Shown here in pieces: positions 12,365 through 60,026 of a stretch of DNA of 64,000 bases. Source of the DNA: an uncultured Cyclobacteriaceae bacterium (GTDB lineage Bacteria > Bacteroidota > Bacteroidia > Cytophagales > Cyclobacteriaceae); NCBI GenBank assembly GCA_937146645.1, contig CAKZRQ010000013.1:248001-312000 (forward strand), in the 5' to 3' direction. A program made the translations under genes and the position numbers. The notes below the pieces were generated by a model, which saw nothing but the letters and a program-made list of their open reading frames with translations, was not told where the DNA came from and ran no database searches. How positions within the stretch are numbered: position 1 is the first letter of the stretch; each line of letters starts with the position of its first letter.

Positions 12365-12796
12365 TTATTGGTTTTTAAAGAGTTGCAATTCTTCTAACAA
12401 GCCATGTATGGATTGGTTCATCTCAGCGAGATTTTTGGTCGAAGATTCAGCTAATTTTTCTTCGAGCACTGACATCACTGATGCTGCTTTTTGCTGAAGG
12501 CTTTTCCCTGGATAAGTCAATTCGGCTGTGACCGTTCTCTCATCTTCTTCTCCTCGTACTCTCTTGATGTAGTTAAGGGACTCCAGCTTTTTAAGGAGAG
12601 GAGTCAATGTTCCTGAATCCAACATAAGTTGCTTACCAATTTGATTGACGCGAAGTCCATCTTGTTCCCAGAGGCAGGACAAAACAAGATATTGTGGATA
12701 AGTCAAGCCAATTTCTGATAATCTTGAAGAGATTACTTGTACCAAAAGCCGAGAACTACTGTAAAGCCCCAAGGAAAGTGAGTGAATTGTGTCCAT
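12365..12796 (-). CDS. ohrR: MarR-family regulator, OhrR-like but without the N-terminal sensing cysteine
   Basis: A winged-helix repressor of 143 residues matching OhrR throughout: LTYPQYLVLSCLWEQ, LDSGTLTPLLKKLE and RGEEDERTV are hallmark segments. In OhrR the peroxide-sensing Cys sits in a motif of type LCFxLYxxSR; here the aligned stretch is LSLGLYSSSR, so the Cys position is Ser8 (codon TCC). The only Cys is Cys41 in VLSCLWEQ, on a later helix. The gene is directly upstream of ohr on the same strand. It probably regulates ohr, but how it senses oxidation is unclear. The family and neighbour assignment are strong; classical Cys15-type sensing is not supported. Confidence 0.88.
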   Translation of the reverse strand: MDTIHSLSLGLYSSSRLLVQVISSRLSEIGLTYPQYLVLSCLWEQDGLRVNQIGKQLMLDSGTLTPLLKKLESLNYIKRVRGEEDERTVTAELTYPGKSLQQKAASVMSVLEEKLAESSTKNLAEMNQSIHGLLEELQLFKNQ

Positions 12797-12823
12797 TTTT
12801 TAAAATATTGGTTGAACACAATT
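12785..12823. promoter_or_regulatory. Candidate OhrR operator (inverted AATTGTGT / ACACAATT)
   Basis: The inverted half-sites AATTGTGT (12785-12792) and ACACAATT (12816-12823) surround the start codon of the ohrR-like gene. MarR/OhrR operators are typically AT-rich repeats containing ATTGT/ACAAT, so autoregulation by occlusion is plausible. One arm lies inside the coding start, which weakens the case. Confidence 0.35.
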
Positions 12824-12986
12824 TAATAATGCTCGAGGATAAAACATCTCATTTATTCAAAAAATAAACCCTTTTTTGGCTTTTTATGGAGTTATGGTCA
12901 AAAACTCGGATAAGTCTCGTTAAGCTCTAAGTTATGTGGATAACTGTAAGTGATTTGACTGAAGGGAATTGGTCTTTTATTCTTTT

Positions 12987-17693: not shown

Positions 17694-18419
17694 ATGAAAA
17701 CGAACGTAAAATTTATGATTGTACCAGTCTTGCTTCTGTGCATGGCTATGACCGCTCCTCAGGAGTTATTGCGAATGAACTACCTCGCTTATCTTAATGC
17801 AGATAAGGAGATTTGGAAACAGAATGTGGCATTGGCCACTAAGATTTACCAGGAAGACCCCACTGTGGATAACTTGGCCAACTTAGCCAAAACTGAATTT
17901 GGTCTTCTGAATATCACGATGAAAGATGAGGATGAGGACCTTTTCGATGACTATGTGGATAACTGTGAAGATCATTTGAAAGAATTAGAGGATGACTCAA
18001 AATATTCAGGTGAGGCCAAAGCTCTTCTTTCAAGCCTCTATGGGTACAAAATGGGCTATAGTCCCTGGAAAAGCATGACCTTGGGTCCAAAGTCTTCTAG
18101 ACTACTCGATGAAGCTTTGGATATCGATCCGGAATCTCCAATCGTGCTGAAGATGTTGGCATCTAATAAATACTTTACGCCTGCCATGTGGGGTGGAGAT
18201 GTGGATAAGTCACTTCAATTATTTGAAAAAAGTTCTCAACGATTTGAGGAAATGGGAGAGGAAAACAGCTGGATGCATTTGGATAACCTTGCCTGGCAAG
18301 GAATCATTCTGACTGAAAAAGGAGAAAAGGAAGAAGCAAAAGTAATTTATGAGAAAGCGGCTGAAATGGAACCCGAATTCCATTGGGTAACCAAGGTTCT
18401 TCTTCCAGGATTAGAGTAA
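17694..18419 (+). CDS. Secreted TPR-like protein of unknown function
   Basis: A 241-residue exported protein. A signal peptide (MKTNVKFMIVPVLLLCMAMTA) is followed by helical repeats: YQEDPTVDNLANLAKTEFG, SRLLDEALDIDPESPIVLKML and KGEKEEAKVIYEKAAEMEPE resemble TPR units. There is no catalytic motif, so a scaffolding or binding role in the periplasm is the most that can be said. It follows the regulator gene by 43 bases with its own operator-like palindrome, so it likely belongs to the same regulon as the membrane protein. A terminator hairpin follows. Confidence 0.75.
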   Translation: MKTNVKFMIVPVLLLCMAMTAPQELLRMNYLAYLNADKEIWKQNVALATKIYQEDPTVDNLANLAKTEFGLLNITMKDEDEDLFDDYVDNCEDHLKELEDDSKYSGEAKALLSSLYGYKMGYSPWKSMTLGPKSSRLLDEALDIDPESPIVLKMLASNKYFTPAMWGGDVDKSLQLFEKSSQRFEEMGEENSWMHLDNLAWQGIILTEKGEKEEAKVIYEKAAEMEPEFHWVTKVLLPGLE

Positions 18420-56960: not shown

Positions 56961-57770
56961 ATGTTTGTCTTTATGGGTCAAAAATATCTACACGGTTTTA
57001 TTCCTGAAGAACAGCAAAGACTGATAGATCAGGCAGGCTTTCTCACTCCATTGATATATCCGAGGATTGATTTTTCTGGTTGTAAGAGAATTTTAGAGAT
57101 TGGCTGTGGTGTTGGAGCGCAGACTGCGAAGCTGTTGGAATTGTTTCCTGAAGCTCATATTACCTGTATAGATCATTCGGAGCTTCAGCTGGCAAAGGCA
57201 AAGGAGAACCTGAAATTCGCAGGAGAAAGGGTGACCTTTTTTCAGCAGGATGCTACCAAACTTGATTTACCTGAGAAGTATGACGCAGTTTATATTTGTT
57301 GGGTGCTGGAGCATATTCCTGAGCCTGTTGAGGTCCTAACTTCCATGAAGTCATTTTTAAAGGAAGGAGCTAAAATTTGGATCACGGAAGTATTTAATGC
57401 TACGTTTTATTTCCATCCAAAAGGGAAAGCATTAGAGAGCTATTATGTGAAGTACGGTGAATTTCAAAAGTCTTTGGGTGGAGATCCCGATGTAGGGGCT
57501 AAACTAGGAAACCTGCTAGAACACGCGGGCTATAATAGTATCCAGCTGTATCCTGGAGGTTTTCATCTTGATAAGAGCGATGAGAATCAACTTTTGGCAT
57601 TTTTGGACTTCTGGAAAGAGCTGATGAGGAGTGGAAGCGAAGAGATGTTAAAGGCAAGTGTAATTTCCATTGAGGATATTTCCTTGATGGAGAAGGATTT
57701 AGACCTTATCGCTAAAGATGAAAACCCAATTTTTTACTATCGCTTCGTTCAAGCATTTGCCAGAGTCTAG
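56961..57770 (+). CDS. Class I SAM-dependent methyltransferase
   Basis: A 269-residue enzyme with the AdoMet-binding Rossmann motif I ILEIGCGVGAQTAKLLELFP near residue 44, motif II ITCIDHSELQLAKAKENL near 68, and QQDATKLDLPEKYDAVYICWVLEHIPEP near 94. The acceptor is unknown; similar sequences are generic methyltransferases. The ATG at 56973 may be the true start instead of 56961 (MGQKYLHGF). It is the last gene before the gene-free region that carries the DnaA boxes. Confidence 0.9.
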   Translation: MFVFMGQKYLHGFIPEEQQRLIDQAGFLTPLIYPRIDFSGCKRILEIGCGVGAQTAKLLELFPEAHITCIDHSELQLAKAKENLKFAGERVTFFQQDATKLDLPEKYDAVYICWVLEHIPEPVEVLTSMKSFLKEGAKIWITEVFNATFYFHPKGKALESYYVKYGEFQKSLGGDPDVGAKLGNLLEHAGYNSIQLYPGGFHLDKSDENQLLAFLDFWKELMRSGSEEMLKASVISIEDISLMEKDLDLIAKDENPIFYYRFVQAFARV

Positions 57771-57913
57771 AATTACCCCAAAATTAGCTCTTATACATAA
57801 TTTGAAAATTGTATTATTCAAGTTAAAATATAATCTTTTTGATGCGGTTTTGAATAACCATGTTTTCTGAACATATATTTCTTTACCCTCTCTTTCCTTA
57901 GGATTCTATTTTT

Positions 57914-57935
57914 GAAGATTTGCCAAATAATCTTC
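57914..57935. repeat. Hairpin GAAGATT-AATCTTC
   Basis: A 7-bp perfect inverted repeat (57914-57920 and 57929-57935) with an 8-base loop. Part of the right arm overlaps the first copy of the 300-bp-spaced repeat. It might act as a weak terminator for the methyltransferase gene. Confidence 0.45.
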
Positions 57936-58240
57936 TTTTTGAGCCCAGATGAAAACACAAATCAGAGGGATAACAGATTCAGCAGATCAGATTATTAGCT
58001 TCAGAAAAATGGGCCGTAATTACGTCTAAACAAGGATTAAAAAAAGCAAGTATTTTTTATCCACAAATTCAATAATTTATCCACACTTACTAACAAGTAG
58101 GATTTAACGTACTGATTATAAGATATTTATAGCTAAAAAAATTTACTAATTTTTGTGGATAAAGATAGCTAACTTAAACAATGGCAAAAATGAGTATGTT
58201 AAAAAAGCTGTTTGTTTCTCTACCAAATAATCTTCTATTT
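57921..58240. repeat. Direct repeat pair, 300-bp period
   Basis: CCAAATAATCTTCT occurs at 57923-57936 and 58223-58236. Extending to 20 bases (57921-57940, 58221-58240) keeps all but two positions. The second copy ends at the ClC gene's stop codon. No transposase-like ORF lies between. Confidence 0.7.
58057..58162. promoter_or_regulatory. Cluster of three perfect DnaA boxes
   Basis: TTATCCACA at 58057-58065, 58077-58085 and (as TGTGGATAA) 58154-58162. All three extend to the same 10-mer TTTATCCACA. Two are direct repeats at 20-bp spacing; the third is in opposite orientation beyond an AT-rich stretch. Confidence 0.7.
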
Positions 58241-60026
58241 AGGCTCGCTCATTAAGCCTCTGACGGATCAATTTTTTGCGGTATGCATTGAATATTCTGG
58301 ACTTAGAAATGAAGCCTAGATACTTTTCTTCGTTGATAACTGGTAAATTCCACGCCCCAGATTTTTCGAATTTAGCCATAACGGATTGCATATTTTCAGT
58401 AGCCAATAGAACTTCTGGGGGACTATGCATTAGATCCTTGATGAGAACGGAATCTCTTTTTGCCTCATCGAACATAATTCCCCTGATATCATCTAATGTA
58501 ATAATACCTCTGAGGTGTTCGTCGTCATCGACCACTGGGAAAATGTTCCTTTTGGAGACCTTTACCAATGAAATTAACTCGGATAGTTTGGCATCAGGTG
58601 AAACAGGATGTAAATCTTTTTCTATGACATGGGAGATGCTTATGAGGTTTAATACTTCTTGATCTCTTGAGCTATCTAGGCTTTTTCCCTGATCTCTTAA
58701 TTGAAGAATGTATAAGCTGTCTTTCTGATAATATGAGGTGGTGACATACGATATAGCGGAAACAAACATTAAGGGTATGAATAATTCGTAACCACCTGTA
58801 ATCTCTGCAATAAGGAATATAGCCGATAGAGGGGCATGCTGAACACCACTCATGAGACCGCACATCGCGACCATGGTGAAAGAGGCTAAAGGTAGGGGAA
58901 TGTGAAATCCAAATTGATTTTTTGCATAAGCAAAGGCGAAACCGAGAATTCCACCAGCAAACAGAGAAGGAGCGAATACCCCACCACTTCCGCCACTTCC
59001 AAGGGTGATGGCTGAGGCGATAGGTTTCAGGAGGACAATGATGGTTAAGAAAACAATAAATAGAGCTGGACTATCAAAGGCAGAAAAAAATGGGCTTGTC
59101 TCCAGGATACTTAGAGGATTACCCTCGATTAAAGTATTGAGGGTATTGTATCCCTCACCATAAATCGGAGGAAAGAAAAAAACCATAAATCCCAGAAAAG
59201 CACCTCCGTAAAGGAGTTTCATTGTTTGCCCCTCGAATCGTGTCATAAATCGCTCTGTGTAATGGACTGCTCGTGTGAAATAAAGGGAAACAAAACCGCA
59301 CAATATGGCCAAAACGAGGTAATAAGGCATATGCGCTGCCTTAAAGCTGTCTACAAGATTGAAATTAAATAAGGAGTCGTTGCCGATGAGGACCATTGAG
59401 GTTAAGGAACCCATGACAGATGCTATAAGGAGCGGGATGAAACTGGTAGTGGAGATTTCCAAAAGGATTACCTCAATTGCGAATATCACAGCTCCAATGG
59501 GTGCACCAAATATTGATGATATGGCCCCAGCAGCTCCACATCCAATTAAAAGAGTTCGCTTCTTGGCATTCAAATGCATAAGAGACCCTGTGTTTGAGCC
59601 TATGGCTGCACCAGTTACGACCATGGGAGCTTCTAGTCCAACGGAGCCACCAAAACCCACCGTCAGAGCAGAGGTAACCAGTCGGCTAATGCTTTTGACT
59701 CTAGGTACTATGCTGTTATTTTTTGAAATGTTGAAAAGTACATCAGGAATTCCATGTCCTCCAAAATCATTGAAAATGTACTTGCCTACCAGATATGCTA
59801 GGGTAATCCCGATTAGAGGATAGAGGATATACATGAAATTGGCATATTCAGCATAGAAATCTGCCGTAAGGAAGTTCTGTATACTGTGGACAGTTTCTTT
59901 CAGAACCACGGCGGCTAGACCTGATAAAACCCCGATGACACCACTTAGAATAAGAATAAAGGACTGATTGCTCAAATGTCTGAGTCGCCATTTTAAAAAC
60001 CGAGTAATCAAGTCGGGTCGGGCCAT
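58239..60026 (-). CDS. ClC-family chloride channel/transporter with CBS domains
   Basis: A 595-residue membrane protein of the ClC family. The selectivity motifs are recognisable: GGHGIPDVLF near residue 88, GSVGLEAPMV near 126 with the gating Glu, and GSGGSGGVFAPSL near 342. About ten to eleven helices precede two CBS domains in the C-terminal 140 residues (HPVSPDAKLSELISLVK, LLATENMQSVMAKFE), which usually bind adenosine nucleotides and gate the channel. The retained Glu suggests Cl/H+ exchange. It lies directly after the M28 gene, 7 bases downstream, and reads into the DnaA-box region. Confidence 0.94.
   Translation of the reverse strand: MARPDLITRFLKWRLRHLSNQSFILILSGVIGVLSGLAAVVLKETVHSIQNFLTADFYAEYANFMYILYPLIGITLAYLVGKYIFNDFGGHGIPDVLFNISKNNSIVPRVKSISRLVTSALTVGFGGSVGLEAPMVVTGAAIGSNTGSLMHLNAKKRTLLIGCGAAGAISSIFGAPIGAVIFAIEVILLEISTTSFIPLLIASVMGSLTSMVLIGNDSLFNFNLVDSFKAAHMPYYLVLAILCGFVSLYFTRAVHYTERFMTRFEGQTMKLLYGGAFLGFMVFFFPPIYGEGYNTLNTLIEGNPLSILETSPFFSAFDSPALFIVFLTIIVLLKPIASAITLGSGGSGGVFAPSLFAGGILGFAFAYAKNQFGFHIPLPLASFTMVAMCGLMSGVQHAPLSAIFLIAEITGGYELFIPLMFVSAISYVTTSYYQKDSLYILQLRDQGKSLDSSRDQEVLNLISISHVIEKDLHPVSPDAKLSELISLVKVSKRNIFPVVDDDEHLRGIITLDDIRGIMFDEAKRDSVLIKDLMHSPPEVLLATENMQSVMAKFEKSGAWNLPVINEEKYLGFISKSRIFNAYRKKLIRQRLNERA

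Follow-up and report, generated by a model that had tools for sequence, protein, structure and literature searches.

The stretch of DNA analysed here, referred to as the window, comprises 64,000 nucleotides (C13:248001-312000) of a genome assembled in 65 contigs, and contig C13 is 435 kb long. The genus is by inference Algoriphagus; the CLC protein of the source genome matches A. sediminis, the nearest named record, at 92%. At about 306 kb within C13, the perfect DnaA box TTATCCACA occurs three times within 106 bp, and this array, hereafter the element, lies among the following features.

56961..57770, + strand: SAM methyltransferase-domain gene, flanking the gap, convergent
57771..58238, no strand: intergenic gap with the element, 468 bp, the largest gap of the window
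58035..58056, no strand: A/T-rich flank GATTAAAAAAAGCAAGTATTTT, abutting box A, conserved in the alignment profile
58057..58065, + strand: DnaA box A, TTATCCACA, by sequence match
58077..58085, + strand: DnaA box B, TTATCCACA, in tandem with box A (head-to-tail, 20-bp pitch)
58105..58129, no strand: 25-bp palindrome TAA-N4-YTGA-N3-TCAR-N4-TTA, with 13 of 14 specified positions here
58154..58162, - strand: DnaA box C, TTATCCACA, opposed to both other boxes, its start 77 bp from the start of box B
58166..58175, no strand: box C flank TAGCTAACTT, kept within Algoriphagus, different in nine other-genus rows
58239..60026, - strand: CLC chloride channel gene with CBS domains, flanking the gap, convergent

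A first-pass annotation, made from the letters of the sequence, had described three perfect boxes with a longer common extension, in AT-rich DNA on which the neighbouring genes converge, and all of this was borne out. Sequence matching extended each of the three boxes to TTTATCCACA, gene calls placed the flanking genes in convergent orientation, and A+T content was 77.4% in the 106-bp element and 72.4% in the 468-bp gap, against 58.1% in the window. The further statement that this is the only gap above 300 bases depends on the ORF cut-off: it is the sole gap of more than 250 bases in the window when ORFs of at least 60 aa are counted, while two further gaps, of 319 and 332 bases, appear when only ORFs of at least 130 aa are counted. 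The window holds eight perfect DnaA boxes against 0.45 expected, a number reached in none of 100 dinucleotide shuffles.

Conservation of the array

The tandem pair of boxes is present as one copy each in 33 of 36 genomes of the genus, and the three genomes without it are 67-83% complete. The spacing within the pair is always 11 bp in these 33 genomes, where the search pattern permitted 6-16, and the third box lies 76 or 77 bp away in every one of the 30 loci, out of these 33, that were inspected. In a separate set of contig loci, 53 of 54 had DNA past the CLC gene, and there three perfect boxes were found in 45 of the 53, while box B was altered to TTTTCCACA in five (the five Aquiflexum and Cognataquiflexum rows of the alignment) and perfect boxes were absent beside the CLC gene in three Belliella loci. 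Some of the numbered genomes duplicate assemblies in the contig-locus set, and the two sets were therefore not pooled. The invariance of box A across the 58 aligned rows is built in, as the selection pattern demanded it. An extra perfect box between A and B, at a 10-bp pitch, occurs in some loci of two genera (L195, L264, L268, L279), and the GATTAAAAAAAGCAAGTATTTT flank beside box A is alike in some other-genus loci and unlike in others.

Across the family, the whole array was recovered in 46 of 196 genomes and in 24 of 84 genera, own genus included. In this search the 11 bp between A and B was fixed and box B was variable at two positions, so that the spacer to box C is the only free result; all spacers measured 67-69 bp where 60-80 was permitted, and a reversed-pattern control gave zero matches among the 196 genomes. 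The exact array was not found in the other 150 genomes, and the element would on this count be not universal in the family, or else moved or diverged. Among 295 genomes of the class, the exact array gave only four matches, all from the own genus, in a search that misses diverged boxes. Beside the CLC gene of four other-family genomes of the order, those with a strong CLC match, the array was seen with variant boxes in G044 and G037, with the palindrome at 13/14 and 14/14, respectively, and with one box of G037 carrying two mismatches as read by eye; nothing was seen there in G047 and G041. Because G044 and G037 keep a diverged form, the counts outside the family are lower bounds. In G055, from a further family, a perfect tandem pair occurs without the palindrome (best 11/14) and with other boxes around the pair.

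The array does not follow its neighbours. Six small genomes that have lost the CLC gene at the locus, or carry it fragmented there, keep the three boxes and their spacings; a CLC-like neighbour was present in 22 of 30 loci and not found in eight, an approximate count owing to partial ORFs. In none of the 30 loci examined is the element overlapped by an ORF of 60 aa or more. As far as these comparisons reach, the element is shown to be non-coding, old and independent of neighbouring genes. The six small genomes (G002, G005, G006, G007, G008 and G011) are incomplete, at 2.2-2.8 Mb, and in them a gene that looks by eye like a transglycosylase sits between the methyltransferase gene and the boxes.

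Position of the skew-defined origin

The first-pass annotation had offered two readings of the boxes, oriC or a DnaA-titration locus, and had remarked that no clear change of skew was visible there. On C13 the plain GC skew has its minimum near 230 kb, yet it tracks gene orientation, and therefore third-position (GC3) skew with genes split by strand was used, scanned in 20-kb slices, with the genomes sampled in parts and C13 covered for the most part. By slices, with variation among single genes, strand-corrected GC3 skew is negative on average left of 220 kb and positive in every slice from 220 to 410 kb, the end of the stretch examined; it is thus positive on both sides of the element, in keeping with that remark. 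At the resolution of single genes, the switch falls between one that ends at 224,080 (-0.20) and one that starts at 224,540 (+0.22), about 82 kb from the element and across the following gap.

C13:224081-224539, no strand: inferred oriC gap, 459 bp, outside the window (23.5 kb to its left), at 2.6 kb on the downstream side of mnmG (gidA)

The palindrome recurs in this gap, which also has an A/T-rich stretch and DnaA-box variants such as TTATCCCCA, CTATCCACA and TTATCCACT. Just upstream of mnmG, TGTTTCACGTGGAACA at C13:228985 is a putative parS-type site; 11 of the 14 genus genomes taken have such a site next to mnmG, and G104, from another genus, has three.

In all five genomes examined by slices, the source genome and four others of the genus, the GC3 switch lies at or near mnmG and 72-308 kb from the element. 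Two of these are single contigs: in G009, where mnmG lies at 4.395 Mb and the element at 4.286 Mb, the switch falls between the 4.38 and 4.40 Mb slices, and beyond it the skew is weak, dropping in places to near zero or below as far as about 4.58 Mb; in G033 it falls between the 560 and 620 kb slices, with mnmG at 614 kb and the element at 455 kb. The strongest case for a switch apart from the element is G026, in which all 20-kb slices from 420 to 760 kb are negative, straight across the element (458 kb), and the slice with mnmG (766 kb) is positive. In G021 the element is on the opposite side of mnmG, and the switch is again at mnmG.

The gap on the mnmG side was found in all 14 genus genomes taken. 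The gene before it has negative GC3 skew in 14 of 14 and the gene after it positive skew in 12 of 14 (G033, 0.00; G014, -0.02), and in G010, G014 and G033 the genes next after the gap are not clearly positive either. Each of the 14 gaps has three to nine DnaA boxes of at most one mismatch, where the count over all of C13 would predict about 0.2 per gap, and their alignment reveals a conserved A/T-rich stretch. In G104, the gap after the corresponding gene holds nine boxes with no more than one mismatch. Skew before this gap, towards mnmG, is negative; past it the values are at first mixed and by 57 kb beyond have become positive, as they are at 1.49 Mb and around the element.

Because of the skew switch, the variant boxes, the A/T-rich stretch and the parS-type site, we infer that oriC of the genus lies at mnmG, where a skew-defined origin means the historical one. 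The element, as these distances indicate, is shown to lie near the skew-defined origin but not at it: mnmG and the element are 72-308 kb apart in the 12 of 14 genomes that carry both on one contig, the element being on the 5' side of mnmG in seven and on the 3' side in five. In other genera, 15 of the 19 genomes entered (of 41 other-genus matches) have both on one contig, at 40-554 kb and at less than 150 kb in 11 of the 15. The dnaA gene is on a different contig from the element in the source genome and about 0.92 Mb from it in G009 and G033, in line with the earlier premise that an origin need not adjoin dnaA.

Perfect boxes, an A+T-rich gap, a conserved geometry and a bend-site-like motif are what would be expected of the chromosomal oriC, or of a second, conditional origin, at the element itself. 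Against this stand the skew switch 72-308 kb off in five of five genomes, the mnmG-side gap with its own box variants, conserved A/T-rich stretch and nearby parS-type site, and the course of the skew around the corresponding gap in G104, and we regard an origin at the element as very improbable. Of the two readings first proposed, oriC thus gives way to the gap beside mnmG, and a titration or control locus is the one favoured. The first-pass annotation had also named beforehand what would count against its candidate origin: a skew minimum elsewhere, which was found, and the lack of the boxes in relatives, which in fact retain them in 33 of 36 genus and 46 of 196 family genomes.

Other box clusters were considered as candidates for oriC, namely, in the own genome, window 12693/12935, window 17864-18200, C13:363848-364026 and C16:58147-58313, and perfect-box clusters in G009, G021, G026 and G033. 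They were rejected: all boxes but 12935 are in or at the edge of ORFs, and none is at the switch on the contigs whose skew was followed, a set that leaves C16 outside.

Several of these clusters have features of their own. Beyond the element, the window has five more perfect boxes, four of them within ORFs (12693, 17864, 17954 and 18200) and one between ORFs (12935). Two of them (12693-12943) lie in and upstream of a MarR-like gene with an OsmC-like gene adjoining, both by eye, and G009 has boxes near the same MarR-like and OsmC-like genes; three (17864-18208) lie on one strand within a 241-aa coding sequence. Four perfect boxes with identical spacings of 191, 221 and 116 bp occur at G009:C1:4262285-4262813 and G021:C1:4998994-4999522, in a gene pair resembling by eye a kinase and a response regulator, about 22-23 kb from the element, and similar kinase/regulator genes of G026 carry boxes at other spacings.

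The central palindrome and a candidate bending protein

The palindrome is embedded in a spacer that is otherwise variable among the 58 aligned loci. Read in the direction of the CLC strand, the palindrome begins 44 bp ahead of box B in 57 of the 58, and the A at position 2 is invariant. As the pattern was derived from these loci, their shuffle statistics prove little beyond the fixed position. In other genera, 25 of the 41 matches were scored, 16 being left out, and the palindrome is at the fixed offset in 24; seven of the 25 duplicate sequences of the 58-locus set, and of the 18 that do not, 17 have the same offset and 13 score at least 12/14, though the letters of these loci were known before the pattern was written. 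At the level of sequence, the element is shown to consist of three DnaA boxes around a palindrome at a nearly invariant position.

The published E. coli consensus for IHF, as given in the relevant part of PMC8682772, is TAAnnnnTTGATW, a sequence like that of each palindrome half, the left one included. At one alignment column this consensus is matched with a mean of 1.78 mismatches of nine (at most one in 26 of 58 loci, exact in eight), and the other 19 columns scanned have means of 3.8-6.7. The whole palindrome resembles what may be two overlapping IHF half-sites, the consensus being that of E. coli. A single PF00216 protein of the HU/IHF family was detected in the own genome, in a search for PF00216 only, and a homodimer of this family would suit the symmetry. 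A palindrome copy (12/14) also stands at C13:322777-322801, about 155 bp upstream of this sole PF00216 match, and is possibly an autoregulatory site.

A weaker copy of the palindrome recurs in the inferred oriC gap; in 13 of 14 genomes the best copy scores 11-13 and stands at position 217-239. The score is at least 12 in eight of the 14 (2.9% of shuffles) and 11 in five (18% of shuffles), and G009 fails; the motif had been spotted in the alignment before scoring. The inferred oriC beside mnmG shares DnaA boxes and a weaker palindrome with the element, and differs from it in having several variant boxes at the skew switch, where the element has three, mostly perfect, boxes away from it.

Genome-wide, with at most one mismatch allowed, the palindrome pattern finds 30 sites in the own genome (7 when reversed), 34 in G009 (7 when reversed) and 16 in G033 (12 when reversed). 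Among the 16 of G033 are both the element and the oriC gap, the element is one of the 30 in the own genome, and neither is among the sites listed for G009. Since the palindrome is not special to the element, its cognate protein may be an ordinary regulator. This recurrence, with 16-34 sites in each of these three genomes, and the conserved flank abutting box A suit the proposal that boxes and palindrome serve chromosome folding, segregation or the regulation of an unseen transcript, in which DnaA would be structural or transcriptional. Against it, no ORF of at least 60 aa covers the element in the loci examined, Rfam gave zero matches in 57500-58500, no terminator-like sites were seen in a scan of 57700-58300, and promoter-like matches in the scan of the element region showed no excess (four against 3.4 in shuffles); because the flanking genes of the window converge, a promoter role is not obvious. 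We consider a role of this kind rather improbable.

Relation to known DnaA-control loci

Most of what is established about extra-origin loci that control DnaA comes from E. coli, and Bacillus and Streptomyces are mentioned as having analogues, according to the relevant parts of PMC5742627 and PMC10950094. Three such loci of E. coli, namely datA, DARS1 and DARS2, consist of clustered boxes in non-coding DNA and alter the nucleotide state of DnaA; IHF acts at datA and DARS2, and DARS2 depends on IHF and Fis (PMC5742627, sections on these loci). In our own scan, TAACCTATTGATA stands between a perfect box and another box in the datA region, all on one strand, and the DARS1 and DARS2 regions each have a box plus two opposed boxes at 14 and 12 bp, start to start, where the choice of boxes that form the core is an assignment made in this analysis. 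Extra-origin clusters in Bacillus subtilis and Streptomyces coelicolor, datA-analogous and said to repress untimely initiation in the part of PMC10950094 that deals with them, are likened to the element by description alone.

The likeness to datA is that both are non-coding, with boxes of high (in the element, predicted) affinity flanking an IHF-type (in the element, candidate) site at constrained spacing (PMC5742627 and PMC4585315, in part; own scan), and that datA is origin-proximal (PMC4585315, in part), as the element is relative to the skew-defined origin. The site between the boxes is an IHF-binding site at datA and a fixed-place predicted motif, a palindrome, in the element. The minimal datA region, at 183 bp, is larger than the 106-bp element, and the essential boxes of datA all face the same direction (both from the datA passages of PMC5742627), whereas box C of the element is opposed. 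Common descent with datA is not claimed.

The orientation of the boxes recalls DARS instead, with three boxes of which box I is opposed to II and III (parts of PMC5742627 and PMC8682772; own scan). If the element were a reactivator of this kind, the opposed boxes would set ADP-DnaA head to head, ADP would leave, DnaA would be recharged with ATP, and initiation would be promoted. Box order and orientation match the E. coli DARS core, DARS1 at 101 bp is close to the element in length, and DARS2 needs IHF and Fis (lengths and requirements as in the DARS passages of PMC5742627). The E. coli trio is compact, however, at 14 and 12 bp in both DARS1 and DARS2, where the element has 77 and 20 bp with a bend-site-like palindrome inside the array, and the proximity to the origin is closer to datA (PMC4585315, in part). 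A reactivator, unlikely as it is, is the main competitor. The DARS-like orientation, combined with a datA-like candidate bend site and origin proximity, is the reason for which the element is assigned to neither family.

We consider it highly probable that the element is a DnaA-control locus and not oriC. For the explanation as a whole, an extra-origin DnaA-control locus with bend-folded boxes that acts as a sink or inactivator near the origin, we give a probability of roughly 0.5. DnaA would bind boxes A, B and C, and a DNA-bending protein, most simply the one PF00216 protein, would bind the palindrome. Bending would fold the 68-bp spacer, such that DnaA on the opposed box could meet DnaA on the tandem pair. 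Because the element would be copied soon after oriC fires, its doubling would add a high-affinity DnaA sink, and the duplicated element might also form an ATP-hydrolysing complex, as at E. coli datA; with less active DnaA, re-initiation would be restrained.

Least certain is the direction in which the element would act: a sink or inactivator is favoured over a reactivator, and a net negative, datA-like action stands at about even odds. DnaA keeps Arg281, Arg285, Leu290 and Arg334, residues tied to datA-dependent hydrolysis in E. coli in the account of PMC5742627. On C13, the origin's contig, perfect boxes number 27 of 74 against 7.5 expected (p ~1e-9, for a contig picked as the window's own), an enrichment that would fit the E. 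coli titration picture, in which a box pile-up near the origin is reported to suit titration (PMC12371093, in part). Against the explanation are the opposed box C, where the essential datA boxes are uniform in direction, distances between element and mnmG of up to 554 kb, the recurrence of the palindrome elsewhere in the genome, and the failure to find the exact array in 150 family genomes or perfect boxes in the three Belliella loci. Against it, too, are that HU cannot replace IHF in E. coli DDAH (PMC5742627, in the part on DDAH) and that the own genome has one PF00216 protein.

A bolder proposal, to which we give tentative and less than even credence, is that the element represents a third architecture of DnaA control, in which DARS-like opposed boxes would be folded round a symmetrical bend site bound by an HU/IHF-family homodimer, which would act at oriC as well, the architecture being present in many genera of the family and, diverged, in two other families of the order. 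Among the matches listed in searches of open-licence PMC full texts, none was an extra-origin DnaA-control locus for Bacteroidota; in such searches 'datA' is inseparable from 'data', and the result is weak evidence of absence.

The locus also carries a caution: oriC can lie elsewhere than at the cluster with the most perfect DnaA boxes in a genome. As a 106-bp element of fixed geometry in 24 genera, it provides a precise, deletable target for the study of once-per-cycle initiation control in the phylum. If the third architecture is true, a common bending switch would couple the origin and a control locus in Bacteroidota.
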